The position numbers and the translations under genes are program-made. The notes below the pieces were generated by a model that was not told where the DNA came from, searched no databases, and saw only the letters and a program-made list of their open reading frames with translations. A DNA stretch of 64,000 nt from contig JALHMS010000023.1 in the NCBI GenBank assembly GCA_022843925.1, positions 1 through 64,000 on the forward strand, read 5' to 3'. Source of the stretch: Burkholderiales bacterium. GTDB taxonomy: Bacteria > Pseudomonadota > Gammaproteobacteria > Burkholderiales > Ga0077523. How positions within the stretch are numbered: position 1 is the first letter of the stretch; every line of letters starts with the position of its first letter. Positions 3,435 to 61,238 of the stretch are shown piece by piece.

Positions 3435-3510
3435 TTCGGGCTGCTGCCCGACGCGGCGTGTCCCGCACCGCGGACATGCTCGGCAATATCTTCGTCGTCC
3501 GGCACACCTG

Positions 3511-3690
3511 AGCCGGAGCAGCGATGCGGCGCAGGCGCTGAGCGTCGACGATCTCGACCTGCTCGCGCCCGAGTGACACCAGCCCCCGCTCGGCAAAGCG
3601 CTCGAGCAGGCGGCTCACGATCTCGCGGACACCACCCAGTGCATCCGCGAGTGCCTGGTGGGTCGCGTGGACCACGCGGCCCTTCCCCGG
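3511..3690 (-). pseudogene. Displaced 3' fragment of a Crp/Fnr-type regulator gene
   Basis: Encodes VVHATHQALADALGGVREIVSRLLERFAERGLVSLGREQVEIVDAQRLRRIAAPA, with 5 differences over 55 aa from the end of the intact gene at 11464-12132; the stop codon is changed TAG to CAG. Confidence 0.85.
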
Positions 3691-3820
3691 GATTCACGCC
3701 ATCGGATGCGGATCGAGGCATCTGCCCATCGACCCGACGCTTTCATCGGGTCCCCGATACGCTCGACCGGGCACACCATGGAATGCAACGGATCCCTTCG
3801 CTGGCGGGCACCAGCGCGCT

Positions 3821-5083
3821 TCAGTTGAAGTCGGTCATCGGGCGCGAGCGGCGGCCCACTTCGATCCGTCCGTCCATACGAACGAGTTCAGCAGGCGTAT
3901 CGCGTCCAAGGAACAGGATGGGGCTGGCCGTCAGCCCGTAGGCGCCAGACTTCAGGACACCGACGAGATCTCCGATCTCGGGAGCAGGCAGTTCGACGTC
4001 GATGCCGAGCAGATCGGTCGGATTGCAGGACGGACCCGCGATGTTGCAACGGGTCGGAGCCGCATCGGAGCGCGTGAGATTGCGCAGGATGAAATTGGTG
4101 CGCAGCGCAGCGCCGAAGGTCCCGGCCGCCGCGAGTTGATGGTGCAACCCGCCATCCGTCGCGAAGAACTGCTTTCCCCGGGAGGTCTTCGCACTGATCA
4201 CGCGGGCCACGTAGATGCCGGCGTTGGCGACGAGATAGCGACCGAGTTCGAACACGAAACGCCGCCGCACGGATGACGTCGCAGCGAAGTCACGCAGCAC
4301 CGGCGAGAGCAGCGTCGCGAGCGCACCGAGATCCATCTCCTTGGCTGCGTCCACGTGAGAGAGTCCGAAGCCACCGCCAAGGTTGATGGTCATGCAACGT
4401 AGCGGCGTCGTGGCCTCGACCTCCCGCACCACCTTCAGGGTGCTTTCGACACCTTCCACGACGCCGGCCGCATCGAAGCACTGGCTGCCCGCGTAGACGT
4501 GGACGCCACGGAAATCGAGGGCATCGAGGTGCGCGACGATGTGCTGCAGGACGCCCGATATCTCTTCCTCGTCGATGCCGAACTGCGTCGCGCGCCCTCC
4601 CATCTTCATGCCGAACGCCCGATTGAGAAGCTGCGGATTCACCCGCATCGTGATGCAGGCGCGCTTTCCGAGTCCGCGGGCCACCTGCACGCACTCGTCG
4701 ATCTCGCGGACGGATTCGACACTGATGCAACCGACCCCGCTCACGATGGACGCGGTGAGTTCAGCGCGACTCTTGGCCGGCCCGGCAAAGCTGAGCGCTG
4801 CCGCGTCATAGCCGGCAAGGAGCGCCTGATCGAGCTCGCCCCCGGAGGAGATGTCGAGACCATCGACCGTCGTGCGCAGTGCGCGGAGCAGTCCGAGGTT
4901 CGGATTCGCCTTGACGGCGTAGTAGACCTGGACCTGACCGTCGAAGGCGTCGCGCACCGCCTGGATGCGGGCCCGTACGTCGTCAGCGTCGTACAGATAG
5001 AACGGTGTGCCGTGGCTTCGGGCGAGCGCCTCGAAGCGCTCTGCGGACAGCGATGACCAGGGGTCGGGAGTCAGTGATGCCAT
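3821..5083 (-). CDS. Fold-type III PLP-dependent decarboxylase (DAP/ornithine decarboxylase family; VinO/BtrK-like or exosortase-associated type)
   Basis: YAVKANPN, SGGELDQAL, HVYAGSQC, NLGGGFG, ELGRYLVANAG, GPSCNPTD motifs. Confidence 0.85.
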   Translation of the reverse strand: MASLTPDPWSSLSAERFEALARSHGTPFYLYDADDVRARIQAVRDAFDGQVQVYYAVKANPNLGLLRALRTTVDGLDISSGGELDQALLAGYDAAALSFAGPAKSRAELTASIVSGVGCISVESVREIDECVQVARGLGKRACITMRVNPQLLNRAFGMKMGGRATQFGIDEEEISGVLQHIVAHLDALDFRGVHVYAGSQCFDAAGVVEGVESTLKVVREVEATTPLRCMTINLGGGFGLSHVDAAKEMDLGALATLLSPVLRDFAATSSVRRRFVFELGRYLVANAGIYVARVISAKTSRGKQFFATDGGLHHQLAAAGTFGAALRTNFILRNLTRSDAAPTRCNIAGPSCNPTDLLGIDVELPAPEIGDLVGVLKSGAYGLTASPILFLGRDTPAELVRMDGRIEVGRRSRPMTDFN

Positions 5084-5124
5084 GGCGTTCTCGCGGTCGT
5101 GCCCGCCGGGCACGACGGAATCGT

Positions 5125-6417
5125 TCAGGGGGAGGCGTTACCGGACCATGTGATGCCGTCGATCCAGAGCTGGTATCCGCGATCGATCAGGATCGACGGC
5201 GACGGGTTGTCGCCGGTGCGGAACAGATCGAACACCCGCGCGGCCCCCGCCTCCGTCAGCGTCTGGGATGAACCTCCGGTCAGGATGATCTGGGCGATGC
5301 GGCCGAGATCGCCTGCGGGCAGTCCCGGGCCGCGCCCCTGTGCGAAGCGGTCCAGGGCAACGAAGAGGCAGCCGTACGACAACAGGGTCGGCGAGGCTTC
5401 GTAGGACCCCTCGCGCATCAGTCGATAGGGATCCTCGACGTCACCCTCGAGGACACTCCTCAGGAACTCGTACAGGCGCGCATGCGAGCGGAGCTGCAGC
5501 ACCAGGCTGTCCCGCGATGCGACGATGCCCAGGTCGACGAAGACATACCTCGCGACGGAAAGCCCCGCAGCCGGCTTCGCCTCGCTCTCGTCGCGCACGA
5601 TCTCGACGGTGTAGTGGAGGTCGGTCGTGGCGCCACCGATGTCGAGCACGACGCAGGCACCCGAGATGTCGATGCCGGAGGAGTTCGCGAGGGCGCGCTG
5701 AAAGCCCCGGCTGACGATCTCCGGGGTGGGACGGATGCCCCCGGAAAGGTTGCTGCGCAACTCGCTGACACCCTCCTTGTAGACGAGATCGTCGAGGTAG
5801 GCCCTGCGCACCGCCTCGAAGACGCTCAGGTTCCGGCTCGCCAGCGCGGCGGCGAGCGGATTGTCGATCACGATGGTCTCGGGGAAGCGGCGTACGAAAT
5901 CCGCGGCGAGGAAACGATTGCCCGCGAAGGCGAGCGATCCGTAGCGATACCGGGTCGGATCGAAGCGGGCGAGACGGTCGGCGAGCGGGCCGGCATCCTC
6001 GCAGTCGATGCCCCCTCCCACCATCAGGATGTCGACGCGTTCGAGGCTGCCGGCGGCCTCGTCCATGTCGTGAACGAACGTGGGATTCGCCCCTGCGAGC
6101 AGCACCTGATTCCTGAGGGTCGCGCCGCTGAAATGCTTGGAAAGGCAAACGATGCCGACACGCAGGCCGCCGTTGGCCGACGAACAGACCAGCACATCGT
6201 CCGTATCGACCGTCGCCGTCAGGGGAGCGAGCAGCGATTCGACCTGCTTCGCAATGCCGGCCTCGAAATCGCGCCCATGCAGCATCTGCGAAAGCACGCG
6301 ATCGTGCCCGTCGATCAGCGCCACCTTGACGACCGTCGACCCGATGTCGATGGCGACCCTCCTGGCCTCGGTGGCCTCGGTGGATTCGGTGGGGAGGGAA
6401 CTCTTGCTCGCAGTCAT
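5125..6417 (-). CDS. MutL/GlmL family protein (putative glutamate mutase reactivase)
   Basis: AIDIGSTVVKVALID and VVLDIGGATTDLHY ASKHA-type motifs; adjacent to glutamate mutase genes. Confidence 0.85.
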   Translation of the reverse strand: MTASKSSLPTESTEATEARRVAIDIGSTVVKVALIDGHDRVLSQMLHGRDFEAGIAKQVESLLAPLTATVDTDDVLVCSSANGGLRVGIVCLSKHFSGATLRNQVLLAGANPTFVHDMDEAAGSLERVDILMVGGGIDCEDAGPLADRLARFDPTRYRYGSLAFAGNRFLAADFVRRFPETIVIDNPLAAALASRNLSVFEAVRRAYLDDLVYKEGVSELRSNLSGGIRPTPEIVSRGFQRALANSSGIDISGACVVLDIGGATTDLHYTVEIVRDESEAKPAAGLSVARYVFVDLGIVASRDSLVLQLRSHARLYEFLRSVLEGDVEDPYRLMREGSYEASPTLLSYGCLFVALDRFAQGRGPGLPAGDLGRIAQIILTGGSSQTLTEAGAARVFDLFRTGDNPSPSILIDRGYQLWIDGITWSGNASP

Positions 6418-6424
6418 CGAGGAA

Positions 6425-7834
6425 TCACACCATCATCATGTTGATGTCGCCGAGCAGTTGTCGGTAGGTCTTGTCGTTCCGGTCACCCACGGAAGCCAGC
6501 AGTGCCCGCTCCTGCTCGGCGTCGGCGTCCGATATCGGCACGTGACCGCGATCGACGATGCGGATCGACTTGTTGGCATCGCGCATCGACACCAGCAGGT
6601 TCGCGTTATCGCTGTGAGGCGAGAACGGGATGTCGAGGTAGCCCATCTGGAAGGCGCGATAGACGCTTTCCCAGAACACGTCGCCGGACAGGTCGAAGAT
6701 CGCACCGATGATGCTGCGCACCTCGGACTTGATCAGCGCCGCCTCCCGGTCGATCAGCGGCGAGGTGACCGGTGCGGCGCACGCGAAGATCCGAAGCATG
6801 TAGCGCACGCTGTCCACCGCTTCGGCATTCACTTCGGGCCGGGGCACCCCGAGGGCTTCGTCGACCGTCTTCACGACGACCTTGTCCGCGCCGACCATGC
6901 CCGAGATCATCGCGGAACCGGCGATCAGCGCCGCGGCCTTCTCGCGCTGCTGCGGGAACTGTCCCATCCACTGGTGGTAGACGAGGTAGGCGCGCGTCGT
7001 CTCGAAACCGAATTCGTCGAGATAGCTCCGGGTGAGGTGCTTCAGCACGCGGGCCGCGGCGACGTCCTGGATGAGCGAGCCGGTCTGTCCGAAGCTCACG
7101 GCGAAGGACACGACCCCCTGTTCTGCCGCAAGCAGCGCTTCGATGATCTGCACCGCGATCGCGATGGCCGGCGGCACGAGCGTCGCGGAAAGGGGCCCGA
7201 AGCTTTCGCGATGGATGGGCCTGTCTTCGGTCGAGTAGAGCGCGCAGATGCGGTCGACGTACTGCCAGTAGAGCAGGCAGCGGTCGAGGGGAAATCCTTC
7301 GGAGTACGGCAGGCAGTAGCAGATGCCGCCGCCCTCGATCTCGGCGATGCCGGAGGCCAGGGCGACCTCGGCCAGCAGACGTGCATCGGGCGTTCCGTGC
7401 CGGAGGCTGATCGGCTTGTCGATCCCGGTGTACAGCTCGCGCGACAGCTCGTGCCCGTGACTCACCAGCGGATACCCGTTGAGGTAGTCCTTGCCCTCCT
7501 CCTCGCTGCGGCGGAGAAGCTGCGTGGCCGTGTCGTACTGGTTGTGACGCGTGTAGCTGTCGATGGTGAGGGGAACGAAGTCCGCACCGGCCTCGCTCAG
7601 TCGACGTGTCAGGGCGTGCTGCGCCTCGAAGAGCGGCACACCGCCGCGCGGCTGGATGCAAGGCAGCGGGCCGCGCTCGTCGTAGGCCACGCGCGGGAAC
7701 CGGCGCCGCGGCACCTTCGCGAGGTAATCCTGTACTTCCCGCGGCGTGATACCGCGGGCGAGCGGATGCGAGAGCACCTGATGCCGGGTGTGCTCGAGGG
7801 CCGTCCGCCTTGCGTCACGCCTGGGCCTTGCCAC
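6425..7834 (-). CDS. glmE: Methylaspartate (glutamate) mutase epsilon subunit
   Basis: Whole-length family resemblance (PLTIDSYTRHNQY, NGYPLVSHG, LRHGTPDARLLAE, GGGICYCLPYSEGFPL); gene order S-E-L. Confidence 0.85.
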   Translation of the reverse strand: MARPRRDARRTALEHTRHQVLSHPLARGITPREVQDYLAKVPRRRFPRVAYDERGPLPCIQPRGGVPLFEAQHALTRRLSEAGADFVPLTIDSYTRHNQYDTATQLLRRSEEEGKDYLNGYPLVSHGHELSRELYTGIDKPISLRHGTPDARLLAEVALASGIAEIEGGGICYCLPYSEGFPLDRCLLYWQYVDRICALYSTEDRPIHRESFGPLSATLVPPAIAIAVQIIEALLAAEQGVVSFAVSFGQTGSLIQDVAAARVLKHLTRSYLDEFGFETTRAYLVYHQWMGQFPQQREKAAALIAGSAMISGMVGADKVVVKTVDEALGVPRPEVNAEAVDSVRYMLRIFACAAPVTSPLIDREAALIKSEVRSIIGAIFDLSGDVFWESVYRAFQMGYLDIPFSPHSDNANLLVSMRDANKSIRIVDRGHVPISDADAEQERALLASVGDRNDKTYRQLLGDINMMMV

Positions 7835-8249
7835 GTTTCAGATCCTCCAACAGGTCAGCAATCGCAACCCCGATATCGGGTTGCTGGTGATAGACGCGAT
7901 CGAAACCGTATCCGGTGAACAGCGAGACCACATCGGCCATGGCGCGCTTGCCGACGACGACATTGCCGCCCACGTAGAGGAGGATCCCGCCGAGTCCGAC
8001 GTCGGCGAACTGGCGGCGGAAATCCGCGCACCAGTACTCGCCTTCGCCGTTCAGCGACGATACGAACACCGCGTCCGCGTTGACCTCGAGAGCCGCCTGA
8101 CAGAAGTGCTCCGGGCGGTTGCGGGTCCGGAGGTTGAAGACCTGGAAACCGGACTCCTCCAGCGCCAGCTGCATGATGCGGTTACCGACGACATGGATGT
8201 CGTCACCGATCACCCCGACCACCACCCGCCCTGCGCATACCTTTTCCAT
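7815..8249 (-). CDS. glmS: Methylaspartate (glutamate) mutase sigma subunit, B12-binding
   Basis: DxHxxG (GDDIHVVG), SSLNGEGE and GGNVVVG cobalamin-binding signatures; overlaps the glmE start by 20 nt. Confidence 0.9.
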   Translation of the reverse strand: MEKVCAGRVVVGVIGDDIHVVGNRIMQLALEESGFQVFNLRTRNRPEHFCQAALEVNADAVFVSSLNGEGEYWCADFRRQFADVGLGGILLYVGGNVVVGKRAMADVVSLFTGYGFDRVYHQQPDIGVAIADLLEDLKRGKAQA

Positions 8250-8258
8250 CGATGCCCT

Positions 8259-9845
8259 TCAGCCCTTCGGATGACCGGGATCGGTCACGAGAGGCGTCTT
8301 GCCCAGACGTTCGAAGGACGCCTGCTTGATCCACTTGCGGTCCAGCTTCCCGGCGTTGCCCGTGATCGGAAAGCTTTCGAAGTGCAGGAGGTAGGCGGGC
8401 ACCATGTGCCGGGGCAGCTGCGCTTTCAGGTACTGCAGCAACGCGTGTTGGGGAAGCGGTTCTCCGCTCACTGTCGTGTAGGCGCAACCGACGTCCTCTC
8501 CGACTTCGATGTTCTGTACGGCGAAGGCCACGGCATCGACGACGTCCGGATGCCGCACGACCTCGGTTTCGACCTCCGTCGGGCTCACGCGGAAGCCCTG
8601 GGTCTTGATCATGTCGTCGGCGCGGGCGACGAAGTAGAGGTAACCCTCGTCGTCCTTGTAGGCGCGGTCGCCGCTGAACACGAGTGTCTCGCCGGGGAAC
8701 CTGGGATGCGTGCGGAACACCTTGGCCGTGTTCTCGGGATCGCGCCAGTATCCCTTCGTGACCGTGGCGCCCCGGTGGACGAGTTCACCCACGACATTCG
8801 GCGCACACTCCTCACCGTGCTCGTCGAGCACCATCACCTGGCAGTCGGGGATGGCCTTGCCGACGGAGGTCGGGTGGGCGTCGAGCTTGTCCGGATCGAG
8901 ATACGTGGAACGGAACGCCTCGGTCAGACCGAACATCGAGAAGATGCGCGCGCTCTTGAAGGTCGACCGGAGGTCCTTGATCATGTCCTCGGAGATGCGT
9001 CCCCCCGTCGTACACACATACCGCAGGGCGGAGAAGTCATGGTTGGCCGTCGCGAGCTTGAGTCGCTTGTCGAACATCTTCGTGATGATGACCGGCATCA
9101 CGGGCAGAGCGGTGATCGACTCCTTCGCGAGCATAGAGAACAGGTCGTTGGGCAAGGCCAGTTCGTGCAGGTAAAGCGTCGCGCCCTTGCGGATCGTCTG
9201 CCAGATCTGATTGAGGCCGTAGTCGAAGTTGAACGACAGCACGCATCCGATCCGCTCGTCCTGATGGGTCCCGAGATACTCGGCGATGATGTCCGCGCCA
9301 TCGGCCAGATTGCGCTGCGAGATCAGGATGCCCTTCGGCCGGCCGGTGGACCCTGACGAATAGATGATCGCTGCGTTGTCGTTGCCGATGCGATCGAAGA
9401 AGTCGCGCGGCTGAACGAATCGCCGCATGTAGGGCAGGTTCGGCCAGGTCTGATCGATCTCGCCGTGACCGGTGATGAGCTTGGTGATCCCGGCGAACTC
9501 GATCACTTCGTTCAGGCGCTCGGTATCGGTCACCATCGCGACCATGCCCGAGTTGTCGATGATGTGACGGATGTTCGGCCCCTTGAGACGCGGCAGGATC
9601 GGCACGAACACCGCGTTGGCGAACAGGGCTCCCAGAATCACCGACACCTGGTCGACGGTCTTCTCCATGCAGATGCCGATGCGATCGCCGGGCTGGATAC
9701 CGAGGTCCCGAAGGCACGCCGCCGTTGCCAGCGCCTCGTTCAGCAGCTCGGAGAACGTCACCGAACGCTCGCGCCCAACGATCGCGGTCTTGTTCGGCAG
9801 GCGCTCTGCAGTTTCGAGCAGAAAGCGAGGGATCGACCTGAGCAT
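8259..9845 (-). CDS. AMP-dependent synthetase/ligase (acyl-CoA ligase or amino acid adenylation family)
   Basis: IIYSSGSTGRPKG, SGDRAYKDDEGYLYF, FPITGNAGKLDRK motifs. Confidence 0.9.
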   Translation of the reverse strand: MLRSIPRFLLETAERLPNKTAIVGRERSVTFSELLNEALATAACLRDLGIQPGDRIGICMEKTVDQVSVILGALFANAVFVPILPRLKGPNIRHIIDNSGMVAMVTDTERLNEVIEFAGITKLITGHGEIDQTWPNLPYMRRFVQPRDFFDRIGNDNAAIIYSSGSTGRPKGILISQRNLADGADIIAEYLGTHQDERIGCVLSFNFDYGLNQIWQTIRKGATLYLHELALPNDLFSMLAKESITALPVMPVIITKMFDKRLKLATANHDFSALRYVCTTGGRISEDMIKDLRSTFKSARIFSMFGLTEAFRSTYLDPDKLDAHPTSVGKAIPDCQVMVLDEHGEECAPNVVGELVHRGATVTKGYWRDPENTAKVFRTHPRFPGETLVFSGDRAYKDDEGYLYFVARADDMIKTQGFRVSPTEVETEVVRHPDVVDAVAFAVQNIEVGEDVGCAYTTVSGEPLPQHALLQYLKAQLPRHMVPAYLLHFESFPITGNAGKLDRKWIKQASFERLGKTPLVTDPGHPKG

Positions 9846-9983
9846 TGCGTCCTCCAGTGAAGTGTGACGGATTTGGTGGCGCCGGCTCCCCGCGAGATGG
9901 GGGAGCCCGGCAGTTTTTCAGACCGGCGCCGGAAGCAAGTGGCTTGCCACTGAAAAGCCCCCGTGGGCCGCAGGATTCGGCAG

Positions 9984-10226
9984 CTAGGCGGCCTTCCGCT
10001 TGTCGATCAGCGCCACGATGCGCGCCAGGGATGCCAGGTTCTCGCGGGTGAGGTCCTCGGCTTCGAGTTCGACGCCGAACTCCTCCTGGATGAAAACGGC
10101 GAGCTGGACGATGCTGAAGGAGTCGAGGATCTTCGCCTCCAGCAGGTCTGCCTCGGCATCGACCTTTCCCTTGTAGCCCACCTCATCGCGGATGTACCCA
10201 GTCAGGACTTCCACTTCCGGTCGCAT
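9984..10226 (-). CDS. Acyl carrier protein
   Basis: About 80 aa acidic protein with phosphopantetheine site LEAKILDSFSIVQL. Confidence 0.85.
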   Translation of the reverse strand: MRPEVEVLTGYIRDEVGYKGKVDAEADLLEAKILDSFSIVQLAVFIQEEFGVELEAEDLTRENLASLARIVALIDKRKAA

Positions 10227-10448
10227 ATCGCGAACTCCTCTCGGTCTCGACCACCCGACCCGGCGCGTCTGCAACGCACGAACGGCGTTGCGCGAGACTG
10301 GCGCGGGCACAGGGGACACATGGATGGAACGGATCGGGAACAATCCGAGTAGAGGCCGGTGGCAGGCACGAACCGTTCCCGAGGTTGGCGCGCGCGAGGG
10401 TGACCAGGCGCCGCAGGACGGCTCAGGCCATCGCGAGCGAAACCGTGT

Positions 10449-11192
10449 TCATCCGGGCCCGCTGGTGTGCGACACAGCGTCAGTCGCTGTCGCAGATTGT
10501 CCGCGGAGCAGAACGTCGGGCCGCAGATCGATGTGGACCTTGGACCGGCCGACCGTCAGGCAGACATACGGGAACACCGTGGCGAGCATCAGTTCCAGTC
10601 CCCACACCTGCAGGAAGAGCGCGCGCCCTGCCACCTTCCAGCCGAGGTGTTGATGTGAGCGCCGCGAGGCAAGGTTGAAGCGGGTCAGGCGGCTGAACGT
10701 GTACTTGATGCCTCGACGGGTCAGATACTCGTTCGCGCCGTTCCAGAGACCGACGAAGCCCAGGCCCATCCGGTGCTCGGGAAAGAGATAGAAGTCGAAA
10801 TCGAAGACGGCCTGGTCCACGGGATGAAGCCGATACCGGCAGCGCACCTCGTCCTCGTCGTACGACTCGAAACAGAACCACATGTACCCGATGAACTGGT
10901 CGCGACGGAACGCGCCGAGACATACCGATCGCTGGACGAAACGCTGGGCCATGATCTCGGGCCGCACGGGCATCCTGGCGATCTCCGGATCCCCGGGCAG
11001 GATTTCGCGGATCTCCAGCTGCCGTCCGAGCGACCCGCGAAGCAGAGGCTTGTCGGAGATGGGCTGCACCATCAATTCGTACACCTGCAGGCGAAGGCGT
11101 GGCGAGATGGACGACAGCACGCGATCGGTCGCGTAGAGCAGTCCGGCGCCAAGACCGAACTCCCTGAACGGACCGAGGATCTTTTTCAGCAT
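10449..11192 (-). CDS. GNAT-like acyltransferase
   Basis: HRMGLGFVGLWNGANEYLTRRGIKYTFSRLTRFNLASRRSHQHLGW resembles GNAT motif A/B; co-oriented with the cluster. Confidence 0.55.
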   Translation of the reverse strand: MLKKILGPFREFGLGAGLLYATDRVLSSISPRLRLQVYELMVQPISDKPLLRGSLGRQLEIREILPGDPEIARMPVRPEIMAQRFVQRSVCLGAFRRDQFIGYMWFCFESYDEDEVRCRYRLHPVDQAVFDFDFYLFPEHRMGLGFVGLWNGANEYLTRRGIKYTFSRLTRFNLASRRSHQHLGWKVAGRALFLQVWGLELMLATVFPYVCLTVGRSKVHIDLRPDVLLRGQSATATDAVSHTSGPG

Positions 11193-11463
11193 CTGACAGA
11201 ACCCTCAGGAATGAACGGTCTTCCGCCTCGGGCGACTGGCACGCCGCGCGGACCTCCGGTTTGCCTGGACCTCAAGCAACACGCACGCCGGACGCCCTGG
11301 ACCGCCATGGGGCTGCGCGCCGTCGGGGAGGCGACGTCCGATCAGCGGATCGGGCCTACCGCGCAGGCAGTGTCCAATGCCGTCGGGCGGGGTAGCTGCC
11401 AGCGGGAGGTCGCCACGGTTGCCGCGCACAGGCCGGCACTGCGGGCATGTCGACCCGGCCTCT

Positions 11464-12132
11464 CTAAGCCGGCGCGGCGATGCGGCGCAGGCGCTGGGCG
11501 TCGACGATCTCGACCTGCTCGCGCCCGAGAGACACCAGCCCCTGCTCGGCGAAGCTCTTGAGCAGGCGGCTCACGATCTCGCGAACACTACCCAGCTCGT
11601 CCGCGAGCGCCTGGTGGGTCGCGTGGACCACGCGACCCTTTCCCAGGAGCAAGGTCGCCAACCGCTGATCGAGGCGCTGGAAGGCCACGGCCTCCACCAG
11701 TTGCATGAGCTCTGCGATGCGCTCGGCGAAGAGCGCGAAGACGTAGTCACGAAATGGCGGGTGCTCCGCGAGCAGCCGCGAGAACACCGGCTGCGGCAAG
11801 GCCACCGCGAGCACCGCGGACTCCGCCACGCCGCGGGCGTTGTAGGCCACGCGCCCGAGCAGGCAGCTCGACGTGAGGATGCAGGCCTCGCCGGGCACCA
11901 CGCGGTAGAGCTGCAGTTCCCGTCCGTTCGCACCCACCTTCGAGACCCGGATGGTCCCGTCGAGCAGAAGCGGGAAGGCCTGGCACGGACTCTCCTCGTC
12001 GAAAAGCACCGTGCCGGCGGGCACGGCCATGACGTGCGCGTCCTCGAGCAGTCGCGTGAGGGCGGCATCGGTCAACGATTCCAACGCGGGGTAGAGCGCG
12101 CGGATGCGGTTCGTGATCTCTTCGGATTTCAT
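11464..12132 (-). CDS. Crp/Fnr family transcriptional regulator
   Basis: cNMP-binding-like N-terminus and C-terminal HTH (LADELGSVREIVSRLLKSFAEQGLV). Confidence 0.85.
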   Translation of the reverse strand: MKSEEITNRIRALYPALESLTDAALTRLLEDAHVMAVPAGTVLFDEESPCQAFPLLLDGTIRVSKVGANGRELQLYRVVPGEACILTSSCLLGRVAYNARGVAESAVLAVALPQPVFSRLLAEHPPFRDYVFALFAERIAELMQLVEAVAFQRLDQRLATLLLGKGRVVHATHQALADELGSVREIVSRLLKSFAEQGLVSLGREQVEIVDAQRLRRIAAPA

Positions 12133-12185
12133 CCCGTGACCATAGGGTCGTCGTCGCGAACTGTAAAGCGCCGGAACACCGTCCG

Positions 12186-13256
12186 TCACCGCTCGCGCCG
12201 CGCCGTCTCCGAGGGACGTTCGCCGAACATCCTCCGATAGTCCGCGGAGAACTGGCTCGGATGCCAGAAGCCCCAGCGCGCAGCGACATCGGCGACCCGC
12301 TCGTCCGGGGTCGTCCGGCGGAGTTCGCGCCGCACGCCGTTCAGTCGTAGCGCCCGCAGGAACTGTACGGGGCTCACGCCCAGAATCTCCTGGAAGCTGT
12401 ACTGCAACGTGCGACGGCTCACTCCCAATGCGGCACACAGCTCGGCGACGGTGACCGGCACTTCGCGCTGCGCATGCAGATGCTCCCGCGCGCGCTCCAC
12501 GAGCCGGGTGCGGGATCGCAACGACAGCACCGGCTGACCGATCAGCCGGCTGCCGGCCTGGGCGCCCGGCTGGCGGGCAGATCGGGCAACCTCCTGACTG
12601 CCGCCGCCCGCGAACACCGCATCCACGCCGACCAGAAGGGACGACACCAGCGCCCGGCGGACCTCGGGACGGTCGAACACGGCGGTCGCGCCGCCCTCCA
12701 CGGCGTCGAGGAATGCAAGCGCGAGGGTGCCCAGCCGGCGGAGTGCCGGGGAGTCCGACAGGACGGCAGGAAGGATCGCGGGCAGTGGGCCCTCCGCGCG
12801 ATCGTCAGGGTCGTCGCGCAGGAGCGCCGCCGGCACGGCGATGCCGATCACGTCGAAATCGCGGGGGGCCCGCAGGCTGAAATCGCCCGGCGCGCCGAAG
12901 GCGAAGCCGGTGCCCGCCGGCAGGCTGTGGTCGTGGAACGCGGCATCGCCCCCCGAGGCGACGATGAGCCCGAGGATGCACGCCCCCGGCCAGGCGCGTC
13001 CGGACTGGAAGACCATCTGGTTCGTCCGTTCCCGGAACACCTGCACGTCGTCGACCCATGTCTCGGTGACGTGCCCGGCGAAGCGCCCGCGCGTCAGCTG
13101 CTCGTAGCGCTGGTCCCAGGCGGCGAGGGCCTCGGCATGCTCGTCGGCGTCGCGGAAGGCGAGCTGCGCGCACCGGAAGGATGCCGGCGCTGCGCGGGCG
13201 GCAGGCTCGGCGCACAGGGTGGGGGCGGGCAGCGGTGGGAAGATCGACGAGGTCAT
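12186..13256 (-). CDS. AraC family transcriptional regulator
   Basis: C-terminal AraC HTH pair (VTVAELCAALGVSRRTLQYSFQEILGVSPVQFLRALRLNGVRREL...WGFWHPSQFSADYRRMFGERPSE); divergent from the amine dehydrogenase operon. Confidence 0.85.
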   Translation of the reverse strand: MTSSIFPPLPAPTLCAEPAARAAPASFRCAQLAFRDADEHAEALAAWDQRYEQLTRGRFAGHVTETWVDDVQVFRERTNQMVFQSGRAWPGACILGLIVASGGDAAFHDHSLPAGTGFAFGAPGDFSLRAPRDFDVIGIAVPAALLRDDPDDRAEGPLPAILPAVLSDSPALRRLGTLALAFLDAVEGGATAVFDRPEVRRALVSSLLVGVDAVFAGGGSQEVARSARQPGAQAGSRLIGQPVLSLRSRTRLVERAREHLHAQREVPVTVAELCAALGVSRRTLQYSFQEILGVSPVQFLRALRLNGVRRELRRTTPDERVADVAARWGFWHPSQFSADYRRMFGERPSETARRER

Positions 13257-13433: not shown

Positions 13434-13597
13434 AGGAGCCTTTCGGACTTGGGATGATTCGGCTGCAACGGTGGGAGAGCGGTCCATGTTCCGCCGCTTT
13501 CCCCTCACGTATTCCCGATACGTTCGTCGACATCGTCAGAATCTGTCCTCGCTCGCCCCCCGTTTCGCTATCGACCACCCAAGCCCGACAGGCTCCT
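13434..13597 (-). repeat. 164-bp MITE-like element, copy 1 (inverted relative to copies 2 and 3)
   Basis: AGGAGCCTTTCGGACTTGGG...AAGCCCGACAGGCTCCT; same length and order as the copies at 39190 and 48344. Confidence 0.85.
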
Positions 13598-13612
13598 AGG
13601 GAGAACACATTG

Positions 13613-14767
13613 ATGAAGGCCATTCTCGAAGCAGCACGACGGGGGCTTCCGATCCTCGCCCTGGCCGGTCTGATCCAGTCGTTGCCCGCGGCGGCGGATC
13701 TGCCCATCGAGACGCTTGGCAGCGAGCCGGTGGTGAAGGCGAAGACCCGGATCTACATCCCCGACATCGCCATCATGCACATCGCCGACGGCAAGCTGCA
13801 CGTGGTCGACGGCGAGACCGGCGCCTACCAGGGGGTCATCGGCACGGGTTTCACCGGTCAGACCAAGGTCTCCCACGACGGCAAGCAGATCTTCATCGCG
13901 ACGGGCTACTACTCGCGCGGCCAGCGCGGCGAGCGCACCGACATCGTCGAGGTCTGGAATGCGGACACCCTCCGCTTCGAGTACGAGATCCCCATCAGCG
14001 AGAAACGCGCGATGGCCCTCAACTACAAGTGGCTCCTCACGCAGTCGTCCGACAGCCGCTGGCTGATCGTGCAGAACGCCACGCCGGCCACCTCGGTGCA
14101 GGTGATCGACCTGCCCCAGAAGAGGACGGTCTCCGAGATCACTATGCCCGGGTGCTGGGCCATCTATCCCGTGCCGTCCCAGCCGAACCGCTTCGGCGCC
14201 CTGTGCGGCGACGGCACTATGCAGATGGTGACCCTGGCCGAGGATGGCAGCGCCGCGTCGCGCACGATCTCCGAACCGCTGTTCGACCCCGACGCCGACG
14301 CGCTTTTCATCCAGGGTGAACCCACCGGCGACATCTACCACTTCGTCAGCTTCACCGGCAACGTCGTCAGCATCGACCTGAGCGGCGAGACGGCCAAGGC
14401 CGCGGGCAAGTGGTCGCTCGTCTCGACTGCGGAACGCAAGAAGGGCTGGCGTCCGGGTGGCTACCAGCCGCTCGCGCTGCACGTGGACTCCGGCCGCATG
14501 TACGTCGCGATGCATCCGGGCGGCGCTGAGGGCAGCCACAAGAATCCCGCGAAGGAAGTCTGGGTGTACGACGTCGCGACGAAGAAGCGCGTCGCGAAGG
14601 TCCATGGCCACGGTGCGACGGCCATCGCCACCTCCACCGACGGCAAGCTGCTCTACGCGATCGATGCCGAGAAGGCCGCCCTCGTGATCACGCAACTGGG
14701 CAAGAAGCCGAAGGTGCGCGGCACGTTCCAGGTGGGCGAGTTCCCCAGCCAGCTCGAGGTGCGCTGA
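13613..14767 (+). CDS. TTQ amine dehydrogenase large (heavy) subunit, MauB/AauB-like
   Basis: Beta-propeller amine dehydrogenase family sequence followed by MauE, MauD and MauA homologues. Confidence 0.85.
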   Translation: MKAILEAARRGLPILALAGLIQSLPAAADLPIETLGSEPVVKAKTRIYIPDIAIMHIADGKLHVVDGETGAYQGVIGTGFTGQTKVSHDGKQIFIATGYYSRGQRGERTDIVEVWNADTLRFEYEIPISEKRAMALNYKWLLTQSSDSRWLIVQNATPATSVQVIDLPQKRTVSEITMPGCWAIYPVPSQPNRFGALCGDGTMQMVTLAEDGSAASRTISEPLFDPDADALFIQGEPTGDIYHFVSFTGNVVSIDLSGETAKAAGKWSLVSTAERKKGWRPGGYQPLALHVDSGRMYVAMHPGGAEGSHKNPAKEVWVYDVATKKRVAKVHGHGATAIATSTDGKLLYAIDAEKAALVITQLGKKPKVRGTFQVGEFPSQLEVR

Positions 14768-14768
14768 G

Positions 14769-15341
14769 ATGGATCCGTCCGCGATCCTCTCGGATCCGGC
14801 CGCGGCAGGCATCGTCGTGGGTGCGCTCGCACTCATCCTCTTCGGTGCCGCGTGGCACAAGCTGTCGGAGCCGAACGCATTCCTGTCGTCGCTCGCCGCG
14901 TACCGCCTCGTGCCCGACGCCACGCTCGATATCGCGGCGCGCGCGGTGCCCGTCGTCGAGATCGCGCTGGGCATCGGCCTGCTGATCCCGGTGACGCGCG
15001 TGCCGGCGCTCGTCGGGACCGCGCTGCTGATGCTCGCGTACGCCACGGCGATCGGCGTCAATCTGTTGCGCGGTCGCAGCTACATCGACTGCGGCTGCGG
15101 CGGCGCCGCCCATCCGCTGTCGTGGGGTCTCGTCGTCCGCAACGGCGTGCTCGCGGCGGCGGCTCTCGCGGTGAGCGGCCCGACGGCGGACCGCGCGCTC
15201 GGCTGGCTCGATGCCTTCACCCTGATCGCGGGCGTGCTCGCGTTCTATGTCGCCTATCTCATGGCCGACGAACTGCTCCGCCAGGCGAGCCGCATGGCGC
15301 GGGCGGACCGGTCGAGCCACGAAGGGAGTCCCCTCTCATGA
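14769..15341 (+). CDS. mauE: MauE-like methylamine utilization membrane protein (DoxX-like)
   Basis: Four-TM protein with SYIDCGCGG motif; gene order B-E-D-A. Confidence 0.85.
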   Translation: MDPSAILSDPAAAGIVVGALALILFGAAWHKLSEPNAFLSSLAAYRLVPDATLDIAARAVPVVEIALGIGLLIPVTRVPALVGTALLMLAYATAIGVNLLRGRSYIDCGCGGAAHPLSWGLVVRNGVLAAAALAVSGPTADRALGWLDAFTLIAGVLAFYVAYLMADELLRQASRMARADRSSHEGSPLS

Positions 15342-15949
15342 CCAGCATCACCATCTCGAACGCCATCCTGTGGGTCCTCATGCTCGGCGTGATCGTCGCA
15401 CTCTGGGCGCTCGCGCGTCAGGTGGGCATCCTCTACGAGCGCGTCGCCCCGATGGGTGCACTCATCACCGACGCGGGGCCCAAGCTCGGCGAGGCTTCGC
15501 CCAGCTTCGACCTCCCCTCGCTCGACGGCCGCACCATCGCCATCGCCGGCACGCGGCCCAAGAGCCAGCTCGTGTTCTTCCTCTCGCCCACGTGCCCGGT
15601 CTGCAAGAAGCTGCTGCCGATCCTGCGCTCCGCGTCGCAGGCCGAGAAGTCGTGGCTCGACGTCGTGCTCGCGAGCGACGGCGACTCCACGCAGCACCTC
15701 GCCTTCTACCGCGACCAGAACCTCGCGCAGTTCCCGTACGTGCTGTCGGCCGATCTGGGCATGACGTACCGCGTGAGCCGCCTCCCCTATGCCGTGCTGC
15801 TCGACGAGCGGGGCGTGATCCGCGCGAAGGGGCTCATCAACAATCGCGAACAGCTGGAGAGCCTGTTCAACGCCAAGGAGATCGGCGTCGCCTCCGTGCA
15901 GGACTACCTGCAGCGTGGCGCCGGCTCGCAGACCGGCGAGACCGCCTGA
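15338..15949 (+). CDS. mauD: MauD-like thiol-disulfide protein
   Basis: Thioredoxin-like CPVCKK motif after an N-terminal TM segment; start overlaps the mauE stop. Confidence 0.85.
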   Translation: MTSITISNAILWVLMLGVIVALWALARQVGILYERVAPMGALITDAGPKLGEASPSFDLPSLDGRTIAIAGTRPKSQLVFFLSPTCPVCKKLLPILRSASQAEKSWLDVVLASDGDSTQHLAFYRDQNLAQFPYVLSADLGMTYRVSRLPYAVLLDERGVIRAKGLINNREQLESLFNAKEIGVASVQDYLQRGAGSQTGETA

Positions 15950-15969
15950 AACCCCGAAGGAGAATCGAC

Positions 15970-16491
15970 ATGCTCCAGATCATCGAAACGTGGATCGACA
16001 AGATGGCGGAACGCCGCGTCCGCAGCGCCGCGCAGAGTTCGTCCCGTCGCAGTGCCGTCGCGAAGATCGGCACGATGATGGTGGGCGGCGCCGTGCTGCC
16101 GATGCTGCCCTTCGACCGCTCGGGCGGCGAGGCCCACGCCGGCATGCCGGCGATCGACGACCCCATGAAGTGCGAGTACTGGCGCAACTGCGCGCTCGAC
16201 GGATTCCTCTGCACCTGCTGCGGCGGTTCCGTGACGACGTGCCCGCCCGGGGCCGAGGCCTCGAAGGTCACCTGGGTCGGCACCTGCAAGAACCCGAAGG
16301 ACGGCAAGGACTACCTCGTCAGCTACAACGACTGCTGCGGCAAGGTGGCGTGCGGCCGCTGCCTCTGCAACTTCAACGAGCGCGAACGGCCGGCCTACCG
16401 CATGGGCGTGCACAACGACATCAACTGGTGCATGGCGGACAAGCAGACGATGTATCACTGCACGGTGTCCGTCATCGTCGGCGTCGCCTGA
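15970..16491 (+). CDS. TTQ amine dehydrogenase small (light) subunit, MauA/AauA-like
   Basis: RRSAVAKIG Tat-like signal, Cys-rich core CEYWRNCALDGFLCTCCGGSVTTCPPG, and Trp residues in VTWVGTC and NDINWC as in TTQ proteins. Confidence 0.9.
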   Translation: MLQIIETWIDKMAERRVRSAAQSSSRRSAVAKIGTMMVGGAVLPMLPFDRSGGEAHAGMPAIDDPMKCEYWRNCALDGFLCTCCGGSVTTCPPGAEASKVTWVGTCKNPKDGKDYLVSYNDCCGKVACGRCLCNFNERERPAYRMGVHNDINWCMADKQTMYHCTVSVIVGVA

Positions 16492-46250: not shown

Positions 46251-47033
46251 TCAAACCCCGCGAGTTCTGCGCTTCCCGGCCCAACCCACGACCGCGAGCC
46301 CGAGGGCCATCAGCGCGTAGGTCTCCGGCTCGGGGACAGGCGCCACTTCGAAGCTGATGCGGTAGATCTCGGTGTCGGCCGCGAGCTGGCTGTCGAACAC
46401 GTTCCCGGCAGCCGTCGTCAACCCGTTGAACGCCGCGAACTCCGCGAAGTTGAAGGCCACCACCGAATTCTGGTCCGCACGCAGACCGTTGGTGCCGACG
46501 AACGCCGAAGCCAGGGGATCGAAGACCTCGGAACCCGCATCCCAGACGTCACGGCTGCGCTGCGTGATGCTCGAGATCTGCAGATTCCCGGCGGCGTCGA
46601 AGAGCTGGTACCGCTGCGCGCCATCGTTGCCGATGAAGAAGTCGTTGCTGGGTACGACCATCGACGCGAACGTGAAGTACTGGTTGGTCATGGTATCGAC
46701 GGTGAACGTCATCGACCGTGACATGCCCGGCATCAGTGGCGCGCCGATGGTCCCGATCGTTGCCCCGGGATCCGCAGCGGCGAACGCCGGGAGCCAAGCG
46801 CTTCCGCTGCCGCCCTCGGCGACGGAGATGATCTCGGGTGTGGCGGCCTGACCGATGTCGAACGCGTCGAAGACGCCGCTGTGGAAGCCCAGATGCAGCG
46901 GCGCGAACACGACGCTGTTGGATGGGGCCAGATTGTCGATGGTGACCGTGACCTGCATCTGTGCCGCAGAGGCGGCACCGCTGGCGAACAGGGCGACGGC
47001 AAGGGCCGTCCGTGTGAAGCGGGTGATCGTCAT
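46251..47033 (-). CDS. Spondin_N-like PEP-CTERM protein, copy A
   Basis: VTVTIDNLAPSNSVVFAPLHLGFHSGVFDAFDIGQAA spondin-like start; C-terminal PEP-CTERM VPEPETYALMALGLAVVGWAGKRR. Confidence 0.85.
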   Translation of the reverse strand: MTITRFTRTALAVALFASGAASAAQMQVTVTIDNLAPSNSVVFAPLHLGFHSGVFDAFDIGQAATPEIISVAEGGSGSAWLPAFAAADPGATIGTIGAPLMPGMSRSMTFTVDTMTNQYFTFASMVVPSNDFFIGNDGAQRYQLFDAAGNLQISSITQRSRDVWDAGSEVFDPLASAFVGTNGLRADQNSVVAFNFAEFAAFNGLTTAAGNVFDSQLAADTEIYRISFEVAPVPEPETYALMALGLAVVGWAGKRRTRGV

Positions 47034-47168
47034 GGCATGTCTCCTGGAGTTGGCGCTGGCGGGCACGGCGATCCGTGTCCGCACACACCCCATCCTCCGG
47101 AGCCGGGGTCACGCAGTCCTCACGCGAACTTCACGGCCCCGTGAGGACTTCGTGCGCCGCCTCGGTTC

Positions 47169-47431: not shown

Positions 47432-48214
47432 TCAGACCCCGCGGGACTTCCGCTTCCCGGCCCAACCCACGACCGCGAGCCCGAGGGCCATCAGCGCGTA
47501 GGTCTCCGGCTCGGGGACAGGCGCGACCTCGAAGCCGATCCGGTAGATCTCGATCCCGGCCGAGAGCTGGCTGTCGAACACGTATCCGGCTGCCGTCGTC
47601 AACCCGTTGAGCGCCGCCAGTTCGGCGAAGTTGAAGGCCACCACCGAGTTCTGGTCCGCCCGCAGACCGCCGGTGCCGACGAACGCCGAAGCCAGGGGAT
47701 CGAAGATCTCGGAGCCGGCATCCCAGATGTCACGGCTGCGTTGCGTGATGCTCGTGATCTGCAGATTCCCCGCGGCGTCGAAGAGCTCGTAGCGCTGCGG
47801 GCCATCGTTCCCGATGAAGAAGTCGTTGCTCGGAATGACCATCGACGCGAAGGTGAAATAGCGGTTGGCCATGGGATCGACCGTGAAGGTCATCGAGCGC
47901 GTGTTGCCGGGCCGCAGTTGGCCGGCGATGGTGCCGATCGTCGCACCGGGGTCCGCGGCGGCGAACGCCGAAAGCCAGGACATCCCGTTACCACGCTCGG
48001 CAATGGAGATGATCCCGTCCGTCGCCACCTGACCGATGTCGAACGCGTCGAAGACGCCGCTGTGGAAACCCAGATGCGTCGCCGCGAAGGCGACGCCGTT
48101 GGCGTGCGCCAGGTTATCGATGGTGACAGTGACCTGAACCGGCGCGGCAAAGGCGGCACCGCCGGCGAGAAGAGCGGCGGCGAGGGCCGTCCGAGTGAAG
48201 CGGGTGATCGTCAT
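47432..48214 (-). CDS. Spondin_N-like PEP-CTERM protein, copy B (tandem paralogue)
   Basis: Same length and near-collinear sequence with copy A; ends VPEPETYALMALGLAVVGWAGKRKSRGV. Confidence 0.85.
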   Translation of the reverse strand: MTITRFTRTALAAALLAGGAAFAAPVQVTVTIDNLAHANGVAFAATHLGFHSGVFDAFDIGQVATDGIISIAERGNGMSWLSAFAAADPGATIGTIAGQLRPGNTRSMTFTVDPMANRYFTFASMVIPSNDFFIGNDGPQRYELFDAAGNLQITSITQRSRDIWDAGSEIFDPLASAFVGTGGLRADQNSVVAFNFAELAALNGLTTAAGYVFDSQLSAGIEIYRIGFEVAPVPEPETYALMALGLAVVGWAGKRKSRGV

Positions 48215-48343
48215 GGGATGTCTCCTGGAGTCGGGGCTGGCGGGCAGGGCGATCCGTGTCCGCACGGGCGCCATCGTCCGGTTCCGGTATCACGCAGTCC
48301 TCACGCGAACTTCACGGCCCCGTGAAGACTTCGCGGGCCGCCC

Positions 48344-59414: not shown

Positions 59415-61238
59415 TCAGTTCAGCCCGGAGCCACCGCCGACGCTGCGCCGTCTCCGAAGCCAGGGACCCAGCACGGACAGCCCGGCGAGCATCAGCACGA
59501 AGTCCGACGGTTCGGGAACGGCGGTCACGTCGCTGATGGCGAATCCTGTCGGCAGGAACTCGAAGCCGGCGGTGCCGCCCACGACCGACACTGCGCCCAG
59601 GAAGCTGCAATCGGCACCGGCGTCGGTGCAGGTCAGGAGATCCAGCGGGCCGGTCACCGTGCCCACGCTCGGGTCGAGGACGACGCGGATGAGGCTCCCC
59701 TCGGCGAAGTGCATGCCCTTCGCGCTGACCGTGTCGAACGACAGGTCGCCGAGGGCATCGCGGGTGATCTCCAGTTCGAGCACCGAACCCGCGCCAAGGG
59801 TCAGCACGCCGCCGACCGTCAGGGCACCCGGGCTGTTGCCGGGCGTGAAGCACGCCACGCCGGCCGGGGCGCTGCTGCACGGGCCGTCGAAGGCAGGGCC
59901 GGATCCCGACAGGAACAGGTCGGCATTGATGAAGCCGGCGCCGTCGAGGAGCCCCCCCGACATGGAGACCGATGTCAGGGCGGTCGGGGAGCTCAGGGGG
60001 TCCGGCCCGATGCGCCCCTGGACGGTGACGTGGCCGCCCGCGATCAGCAACTCGCTCGTCTCGATGGCGCCGCCGGCGGCGACGACCAGGCGACCCGTGG
60101 TCGTGAGGCTGCCGCCGGTCAGGCTCCCCGCGATACTCAGCAGGCCTTCGTTCTCGAGGCGTCCGGCGTCCAGACCACCGACGCTCTGCGTGAACCGGGA
60201 GCCCCCCGAGACATCGATGGAGCCACCCGCCCGGTTGAGCACGTAGTTGCCGTTGTCGAAAGCGGCCCGGTTCGAGAGGACGATGGCGCCACCGTTGAGG
60301 ATCGCGCCATTCTCGCGGGTTCGCAGCACGCCACCGTCGACCTCCGTCGTGGCGCCCGCCTCCTGTTGGTACCGGCCGGAGATGAACGACCCGGGCGCGG
60401 TGCCCGAGCCCGAGGTCTCGAGCACACTCCCCTGCAGAACGCGCACCGTGGCGCCGGTGCGGTTCGCAAACTCTCCGGTGTTCACGAACGTGGTGCCCTC
60501 GCCGAGTACCACGACACCGGGACCCTCGTTGTCGAACCGCGCGTCCGACAGGACCCCCGTCGTTCCCAGCCGGACCGTCTGCGCGTAGGGAAGACTGGGA
60601 TCGAGTTCCCGCAAGACCGGCGCATTGACGCTCTCGAACAGCCCGGTGTTGTGCACCCGGTTCACGATGTCGAGATTGCCATGATTCGTCCAGGTGCCGG
60701 TGTCAGTCCAACTCCCTCCTCCCGTGACCCCGGACACCGTGGTGAAGGTGAGGTTCTCCACCAGCCCCAACACCGTGAACCGGCCGAAGGATGGAGCGGC
60801 AAACGTCTCGGTGGCGTCCGTGTACGAGCCCGTGATGAGGCGGGCCCCCTCGTTGCGCAGCACGCCGATCACCTCCCCCTGCGCTGCCTGCAGGCGCGCC
60901 GGGCTGCCGAAGAAAGGCACGCGGTTGTAGACGAGGCCGCTGCTGCCGACCGAGAGTCCGCCGCTCTCGCTGCTGAACCCCACCCGGACGTCCGCATCGT
61001 TGATCAGGGTACCCAGCACCGCGACGGCCCGGACGGATCCGAACGTGCCGGTGTCGAGACTGCCCGGCGGAAACACCTGGAGAAAATCGTTGACGGGGAC
61101 GGTCACGGAGGGGATCACCCGCTCCGTTCTGATCACCACGTAGTTCTGTGCGAGCACAGGCGAGGGATCGAGCAGTGCGGCGAATGCGGCCGCGAACGTG
61201 GCGGCAGCGCGGGCGATGGGATGGCGTCGGAACATCAT
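59415..61238 (-). CDS. Large PEP-CTERM protein with autotransporter-like beta-helix repeats
   Basis: Gly/Asn/Thr-rich repeats (TGRLVVAAGGAIETSELLIAGGHVTVQGRI) and C-terminus AVPEPSDFVLMLAGLSVLGPWLRRRR. Confidence 0.85.
   Translation of the reverse strand: MMFRRHPIARAAATFAAAFAALLDPSPVLAQNYVVIRTERVIPSVTVPVNDFLQVFPPGSLDTGTFGSVRAVAVLGTLINDADVRVGFSSESGGLSVGSSGLVYNRVPFFGSPARLQAAQGEVIGVLRNEGARLITGSYTDATETFAAPSFGRFTVLGLVENLTFTTVSGVTGGGSWTDTGTWTNHGNLDIVNRVHNTGLFESVNAPVLRELDPSLPYAQTVRLGTTGVLSDARFDNEGPGVVVLGEGTTFVNTGEFANRTGATVRVLQGSVLETSGSGTAPGSFISGRYQQEAGATTEVDGGVLRTRENGAILNGGAIVLSNRAAFDNGNYVLNRAGGSIDVSGGSRFTQSVGGLDAGRLENEGLLSIAGSLTGGSLTTTGRLVVAAGGAIETSELLIAGGHVTVQGRIGPDPLSSPTALTSVSMSGGLLDGAGFINADLFLSGSGPAFDGPCSSAPAGVACFTPGNSPGALTVGGVLTLGAGSVLELEITRDALGDLSFDTVSAKGMHFAEGSLIRVVLDPSVGTVTGPLDLLTCTDAGADCSFLGAVSVVGGTAGFEFLPTGFAISDVTAVPEPSDFVLMLAGLSVLGPWLRRRRSVGGGSGLN

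Follow-up and report, generated by a model that had tools for sequence, protein, structure and literature searches.

The window analysed here, that is, the whole stretch of 64,000 nt covering positions 1-64000 of contig C23 of a Burkholderiales genome (G000; the start of the window is the end of the contig), carries seven co-oriented genes on its minus strand (3821-11192), as read from open reading frames and family profiles. In order of transcription, they encode a GNAT-like protein, an acyl carrier protein (ACP), an AMP-ligase, the glutamate mutase subunits GlmS and GlmE, the accessory protein GlmL and a fold-III pyridoxal phosphate (PLP) decarboxylase. We think, with some reservation, that these genes form a module for a carrier-bound beta-amino acid used in surface-glycan or exosortase A (XrtA) chemistry.

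According to this proposal, GlmS and GlmE, together with GlmL, would convert L-glutamate into (2S,3S)-3-methylaspartate. The ligase, of the type of VinN from vicenistatin biosynthesis, would adenylate the beta-carboxylate of 3-methylaspartate and load it on the ACP, and the decarboxylase, of the BtrK/VinO type, would strip the alpha-carboxylate to give 3-aminoisobutyryl-ACP. Considering the characterised relatives, each of these enzymatic steps is quite likely. The GNAT-like protein may then pass the 3-aminoisobutyryl group to an acceptor, which would most likely be an amino sugar of an exopolysaccharide made by an XrtA locus.

Composition and conservation of the seven-gene module

All seven genes listed in a first-pass annotation of this DNA were found in place, and all but the GNAT-like gene match curated families. 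The GNAT-like gene (10449..11192, minus strand, as all those of the module) is followed after 225 bp by the gene of a 79-aa ACP (9984..10223; PF00550, E 5e-7), whose start is best placed at the ATG at 10223, with AGGAG upstream. The ACP keeps the phosphopantetheine Ser in a DSF motif, and its nearest curated models (OlsHI ACP, DltC and AmcB) are all under cut-off. The ligase gene (8259..9845; PF00501 and PF13193) starts 138 bp further on. From there to the decarboxylase, the intergenic gaps are 9, -19, 7 and 11 bp, and these five genes are spaced as in an operon. GlmS (7815..8249; PF02310, B12-binding) scores 157 bits against NF002612 (cut-off 110), and GlmE (6425..7834; PF06368 MutE, 430 bits) scores 405.6 bits against TIGR01503 (cut-off 390), so that each is named above cut-off by at least one NCBIfam model. 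GlmL (5125..6417) is a diverged MutL-like protein (PF13941, 97 bits; NF040745, 84.6 bits for a cut-off of 475), and the last gene encodes the PLP decarboxylase (3821..5113; PF02784 and PF00278).

A ligase scan of public genomes revealed the same seven genes, in unchanged order, in two other genomes, a Betaproteobacteria metagenome-assembled genome (MAG; L001, ligase identity 92%) and a Rubrivivax MAG (L002, 75%). L001 shares coordinates and identity with a locus of a genus relative (G002), and we treated both as one locus (L001/G002). Conservation of gene order at these levels of identity argues that the module is not a chance arrangement. What the sequences themselves show is which genes are present, their order in relatives, the catalytic residues, the clades and the linkage on genomes.

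The ligase and the decarboxylase resemble enzymes of beta-amino acid pathways

The first-pass annotation had compared this gene set with the starter-unit logic of vicenistatin. The module indeed shares with the vicenistatin set a mutase (VinH/VinI), an adenylating enzyme (VinN), a stand-alone ACP (VinL) and a PLP decarboxylase (VinO), and the comparison is now backed by the ligase pocket, the BtrK-like decarboxylase, the intact active site of the mutase and the tight linkage of mutase and ligase. The module differs by having no polyketide synthase (PKS) and no recognised homologue of VinK, VinM or VinJ, and by the presence instead of the GNAT-like protein and an XrtA context.

Alignment of the ligase to VinN (3wv4) showed that Asp230, which binds the amino group in VinN, and Arg331 are conserved (D208 and R312), while Ser299 is replaced by Thr (T280), Lys330 by Phe (F311) and the bulky Phe231 by Tyr (Y209); residue roles were assigned from PMC11253843 and PMC7756342. 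In adenylation (A) domains for alpha-amino acids, the beta13-beta14 loop is one residue longer than in the VinN type; the loop of the module ligase aligns without gap to VinN and with gaps of 1-2 residues to LgrA domains. By these residues, the ligase has the VinN signature, with an Asp for the amino group, an Arg for the alpha-carboxylate and a short loop, and it cannot be counted among the ordinary fatty acyl-CoA synthetases. It is predicted to load 3-methylaspartate on the ACP through the beta-carboxylate.

The best solved relatives of the decarboxylase are two BtrK structures (282 and 280 bits), with LysA structures reaching at most 160, and trees split it from LysA at 100/100, as expected for the BtrK/VinO-like enzyme that had been suggested. 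BtrK, which decarboxylates L-glutamyl-BtrI ACP in butirosin biosynthesis, also has an ACP-bound acidic amino acid as substrate, although this is a glutamyl-ACP in an aminoglycoside pathway. The module decarboxylase is predicted, by analogy, to act on ACP-bound 3-methylaspartate.

The ligase and decarboxylase also recall exosortase A gene sets, an earlier suggestion that was sound but incomplete. The nearest families are indeed TIGR03098 and TIGR03099 of the standard XrtA set (ligase_PEP_1/dCO2ase_PEP1/ACP/hydr1/hydr2, TIGR03098-TIGR03101), which uses the same superfamilies of ligase, ACP and decarboxylase. However, the module proteins are distant relatives and not members, since the ligase reaches 495 bits for a cut-off of 592 and the decarboxylase 427 bits in the window, 415 in G002 and 388 in L002 for a cut-off of 478; in addition, GlmS, GlmE and GlmL are added, and the own genome also holds a standard pair. 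In trees, the module ligases group with the ligases of GlmS-GlmE-GlmL-ligase units from two genomes and a Campylobacteraceae ligase (100/99), and the standard XrtA, Burkholderia and Sinorhizobium ligases fall apart from this clade; the standard XrtA decarboxylases likewise form another clade. Judged from these trees, the ligase and decarboxylase clades are old and separate from the standard XrtA ones. A recent duplication of the XrtA trio of the own genome was considered and rejected, as both proteins are in clades apart from all standard ones.

The standard XrtA families themselves can be connected to known chemistry. A Burkholderia cenocepacia locus (L058) contains KAS III, ACP, A domain, decarboxylase and acyl-CoA dehydrogenase-like genes, and its ligase (700 bits) and decarboxylase (559 bits) are above the TIGR03098 and TIGR03099 cut-offs. 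We could not equate this ligase letter for letter with AfcQ, considering that the Arg is at 324 in the open reading frame and at 311 as published, and that its distance to the catalytic Lys is 191 instead of 192; we therefore term the locus afc/bol-type. AfcQ attaches L-Asp to the carrier AfcK after activating the side-chain carboxylate, and AfcP turns the attached residue into beta-Ala by decarboxylation (PMC12186527); the same route was proposed for BolO, BolC and BolN (PMC7756342). These Burkholderia lipopeptide systems have a ligase, an ACP and a decarboxylase, as the module has; they make beta-alanyl-ACP from L-Asp, have no mutase and serve a lipopeptide product. As the afc/bol-type pair is above the XrtA cut-offs, standard XrtA ligases and decarboxylases are predicted, by analogy, to make beta-alanyl-ACP.

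GlmE with an intact active site is linked to VinN-type ligases

GlmE is closest in the PDB to 6h9e and 1cb7 (340 and 336 bits) and shares R66, R100, R149, H150, E171, Y177 and Y181 with its Clostridium counterpart, among which we take R66, R100, R149, E171, Y177 and Y181 to be the substrate residues; GlmS has an intact DxHxxG (DIHVVG). The mutase has the same subunits and substrate residues as that of Clostridium cochlearium. The latter feeds glutamate fermentation, whereas the mutase of the module sits with a ligase, an ACP and a decarboxylase.

We then surveyed GlmE in 399 genomes of the order, 369 of the class and 349 of the phylum (overlapping draws), plus the loci of the public scan; several of the loci compared are MAG contigs, and counts based on trees are not independent events. 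Eight GlmE were complete in their active site, those of the three modules and of L086, L087, L092, L093 and L094. A VinN-type ligase adjoins GlmE in seven of the eight, and for the eighth, in G764, the ligase is on another contig, so that no active-site-complete GlmE without such a ligase was found in the sample; conservation of the mutase independently of the ligase, which would have spoken against the annotation, was thus not seen. GlmE and ligase trees agree, the module clade being paired in both with the GlmSEL-ligase clade. A residue code, DYGxN, was found in 8/8 mutase-linked ligases and in 1/14 others (Fisher p 3e-5, with related rows); because of the exception and the relatedness of the rows, we did not adopt it as a marker of 3-methylaspartate and retain it as a lead only.

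L086 (6242-10840) and L087 (5200-9756) hold four-gene GlmS-GlmE-GlmL-ligase units with no ACP or decarboxylase nearby. No exosortase match was found in G777, G587, G661 and G764, which indicates that the chemistry of mutase and ligase is not tied to exosortase. Seven other GlmE homologues, from six genomes of the order, are without E171, and R149 is missing as well in six of the seven; none of them is found with the trio. We therefore did not count every GlmE homologue in the order as a glutamate mutase. In the GlmS/GlmL/GlmE-like genes of L047-L052, from other genomes of the order, Leu replaces both R149 and E171, and glutamate is probably not the substrate of these proteins.

Exosortase A context and the GNAT-like protein

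In L001/G002, XrtA hydrolases 2 and 1 and the XrtA O-ligase precede the seven genes, and a glycosyltransferase, an XrtA amidotransferase and the stp1 glycosyltransferase come after them, with exosortase A itself (xrtA, 307 bits for a cut-off of 208) about 8 kb off in the same locus. In L002, the module stands between two standard XrtA genes, that of a ligase (763 bits) before it and that of a decarboxylase (626 bits) after it. Contig C6 of the own genome carries a standard XrtA set (hydr1, hydr2, ACP, ligase of 757 bits and decarboxylase of 593 bits, then PrsK, PrsR and PrsT), and there are exosortases on C20 and C21 and a LysA on C20; the module of the window is therefore an additional set.

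The GNAT-like family is common to the module and the standard XrtA set. Its homologues were found in 12 of 300 genomes of the order, and each of these 12 belongs to the 57 that have TIGR03099 (hypergeometric 8e-10, kinship ignored). In 8 of 10 loci outside the module, the gene is surrounded by standard XrtA genes (ACP, hydrolase, ligase and decarboxylase), the two remaining loci being those of G004 and G116. Together with the loci above, this gives the exosortase link, which had been called unproven, the support of genomic context. In L081 and L082, both from genus relatives, the GNAT-like gene is between the ACP and ligase of XrtA sets; it is missing from the XrtA set of the own genome (L053:12982-13343), and in G000 we found no copy other than that of the window module.

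The GNAT-like protein gave no Pfam match at 0.001 and no match in a PDB profile search. It has the motif PEHRxGLGFVGLW, its relatives give marginal Acetyltransf matches, and the PDB matches listed by Foldseek for its AlphaFold model are overwhelmingly GNAT enzymes, for a model of low confidence (mean pLDDT 51.6) built with three sequences. Some GNAT enzymes, those of the LuxI and OlsB types, take acyl-ACP donors, and by analogy an ACP donor is plausible for this one.

A glycan amine is the favoured acceptor

In Sinorhizobium (pSymB) and Paracoccus, ligase/decarboxylase pairs without mutase are part of polysaccharide loci. In L094, the ACP, ligase, GlmS-GlmE fusion and decarboxylase adjoin glycosyltransferases and a PIG-L de-N-acetylase, which would expose a sugar amine, and in L093, the ligase and GlmSE are inside an NDP-sugar locus from which the decarboxylase is absent. 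There are known amino sugars that bear aspartyl groups linked by their side-chain carboxylate (PMC10609480). Taken together, these data favour a glycan amine as acceptor. Drawn as they are from genomic context, transfer by the GNAT-like protein, a glycan as acceptor and any part played in protein sorting are tentative proposals. We also observed that two related proteins without Pfam family (L094:4806-5888 and L059:7466-8353; 24% identity, 2e-17) adjoin ligase/decarboxylase pairs in two unrelated polysaccharide loci, that of L059 having the Sinorhizobium ligase.

Alternative explanations

Several observations weigh against our proposal. The ligase has Phe (F311) where VinN has K330. DYGxN, present in all mutase-linked ligases, is shared by one XrtA ligase without such linkage, so that the sequence does not tell 3-methylaspartate from aspartate as substrate. 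Enzyme substrates are assigned by relatedness and not by assay, and the use of an ACP donor by the GNAT-like protein is predicted, not proved. The window copy is on C23, outside any XrtA locus, with the XrtA genes on C6 and C20, and three related GlmSEL-ligase genomes showed neither a TIGR03099-type decarboxylase nor an exosortase match. Considering that the afc/bol-type pair is in the same families, that AfcQ takes L-Asp (PMC12186527) and that VinN itself is weakly active with it (PMC11284099), the trio could use L-aspartate as the Afc enzymes do and make beta-alanyl-ACP, leaving the mutase genes as bystanders or as part of another pathway. We find this rather unlikely, as the mutase genes are between ligase and decarboxylase in 3/3 genomes, with nearly touching ends in the window, G000 already has a standard XrtA set, and mutase-linked and unlinked ligases are in different clades. 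Glutamate fermentation through 3-methylaspartate (the mesaconate pathway) would use precisely GlmS, GlmE and GlmL; it is highly improbable, since in three genomes the mutase genes are set within one module with those of a ligase, an ACP and a decarboxylase, and inspection of the neighbouring genes, made without a family search, revealed no methylaspartate ammonia-lyase beside the module.

The product could also be the starter unit of a diffusible small molecule, a macrolactam or a lipopeptide, with the PKS or non-ribosomal peptide synthetase (NRPS) elsewhere in the genome. This is exactly the logic of vicenistatin and AFC-BC11, but the GNAT-like family follows XrtA sets, the context in L001 and L002 consists of glycosyltransferases and XrtA genes, and the surroundings of the module in the three genomes showed neither a PKS nor an NRPS, making a starter unit very unlikely. 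Finally, the carrier-bound beta-amino acid could act as an amine nucleophile through which exosortase A joins PEP-CTERM proteins to a glycan. A free primary amine suits a sortase-like transpeptidase, xrtA is co-located in L001/G002, and standard XrtA sets carry a similar ligase, ACP and decarboxylase. On the other side, related ligase/decarboxylase pairs occur in polysaccharide loci on plasmid records without exosortase, and G777 has ligase and mutase without one, and we regard this role as unlikely. The same low probability applies to its general form, in which XrtA systems would build a carrier-bound beta-amino acid (beta-alanine in the standard set, 3-aminoisobutyrate in the mutase variant) and place it on an exported glycan, supplying the amine for exosortase-PEP-CTERM joining.

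Other features of the window

A 194-nt direct repeat (89% identity, spacing 7956) brackets the seven genes. Its right arm (11455..11648, minus strand) is the 3' end of a Crp/Fnr-type gene (11464-12438), and its left arm (3499..3692, minus strand) is a truncated 3' copy of this gene. The repeat suggests, at the sequence level, that the module came in as one cassette. A sigma-54-like -24/-12 site (TGGCAAGCCACTTGCT, 9934..9949, minus strand) lies upstream of the ligase gene and is the only match in the window (0.08 expected); as it is missing from L001 and L002, we do not claim a promoter and keep the site as a lead only. The three PEP-CTERM proteins announced for the window correspond to three PEP-CTERM-like C termini (46251-47093, 47432-48274 and 59415-61238), each of them below the curated cut-off. 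Genes at 13454-16491 encode large and small subunits resembling methylamine dehydrogenase (about 164 bits each, under cut-off) and MauD (above cut-off); they adjoin an AraC-type regulator, upstream of an ABC transporter, and likely encode a tryptophan tryptophylquinone (TTQ) amine dehydrogenase for another substrate.

Implications for exosortase-associated loci

In the open-access literature, we found no assignment of chemistry for the ligase, ACP, decarboxylase and hydrolases of XrtA loci, and no report of the combination described here. The family tie to enzymes making beta-alanyl-ACP, together with the mutase-bearing variant described here, would provide a defined substrate and product for XrtA-locus enzymes lacking an assigned job. 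If our proposal is true, bacterial surface glycans would bear beta-amino acid groups, a kind of substituent without an entry in a recent review on the side groups of glycans (PMC10609480), and the question of the acceptor in exosortase sorting would become approachable.

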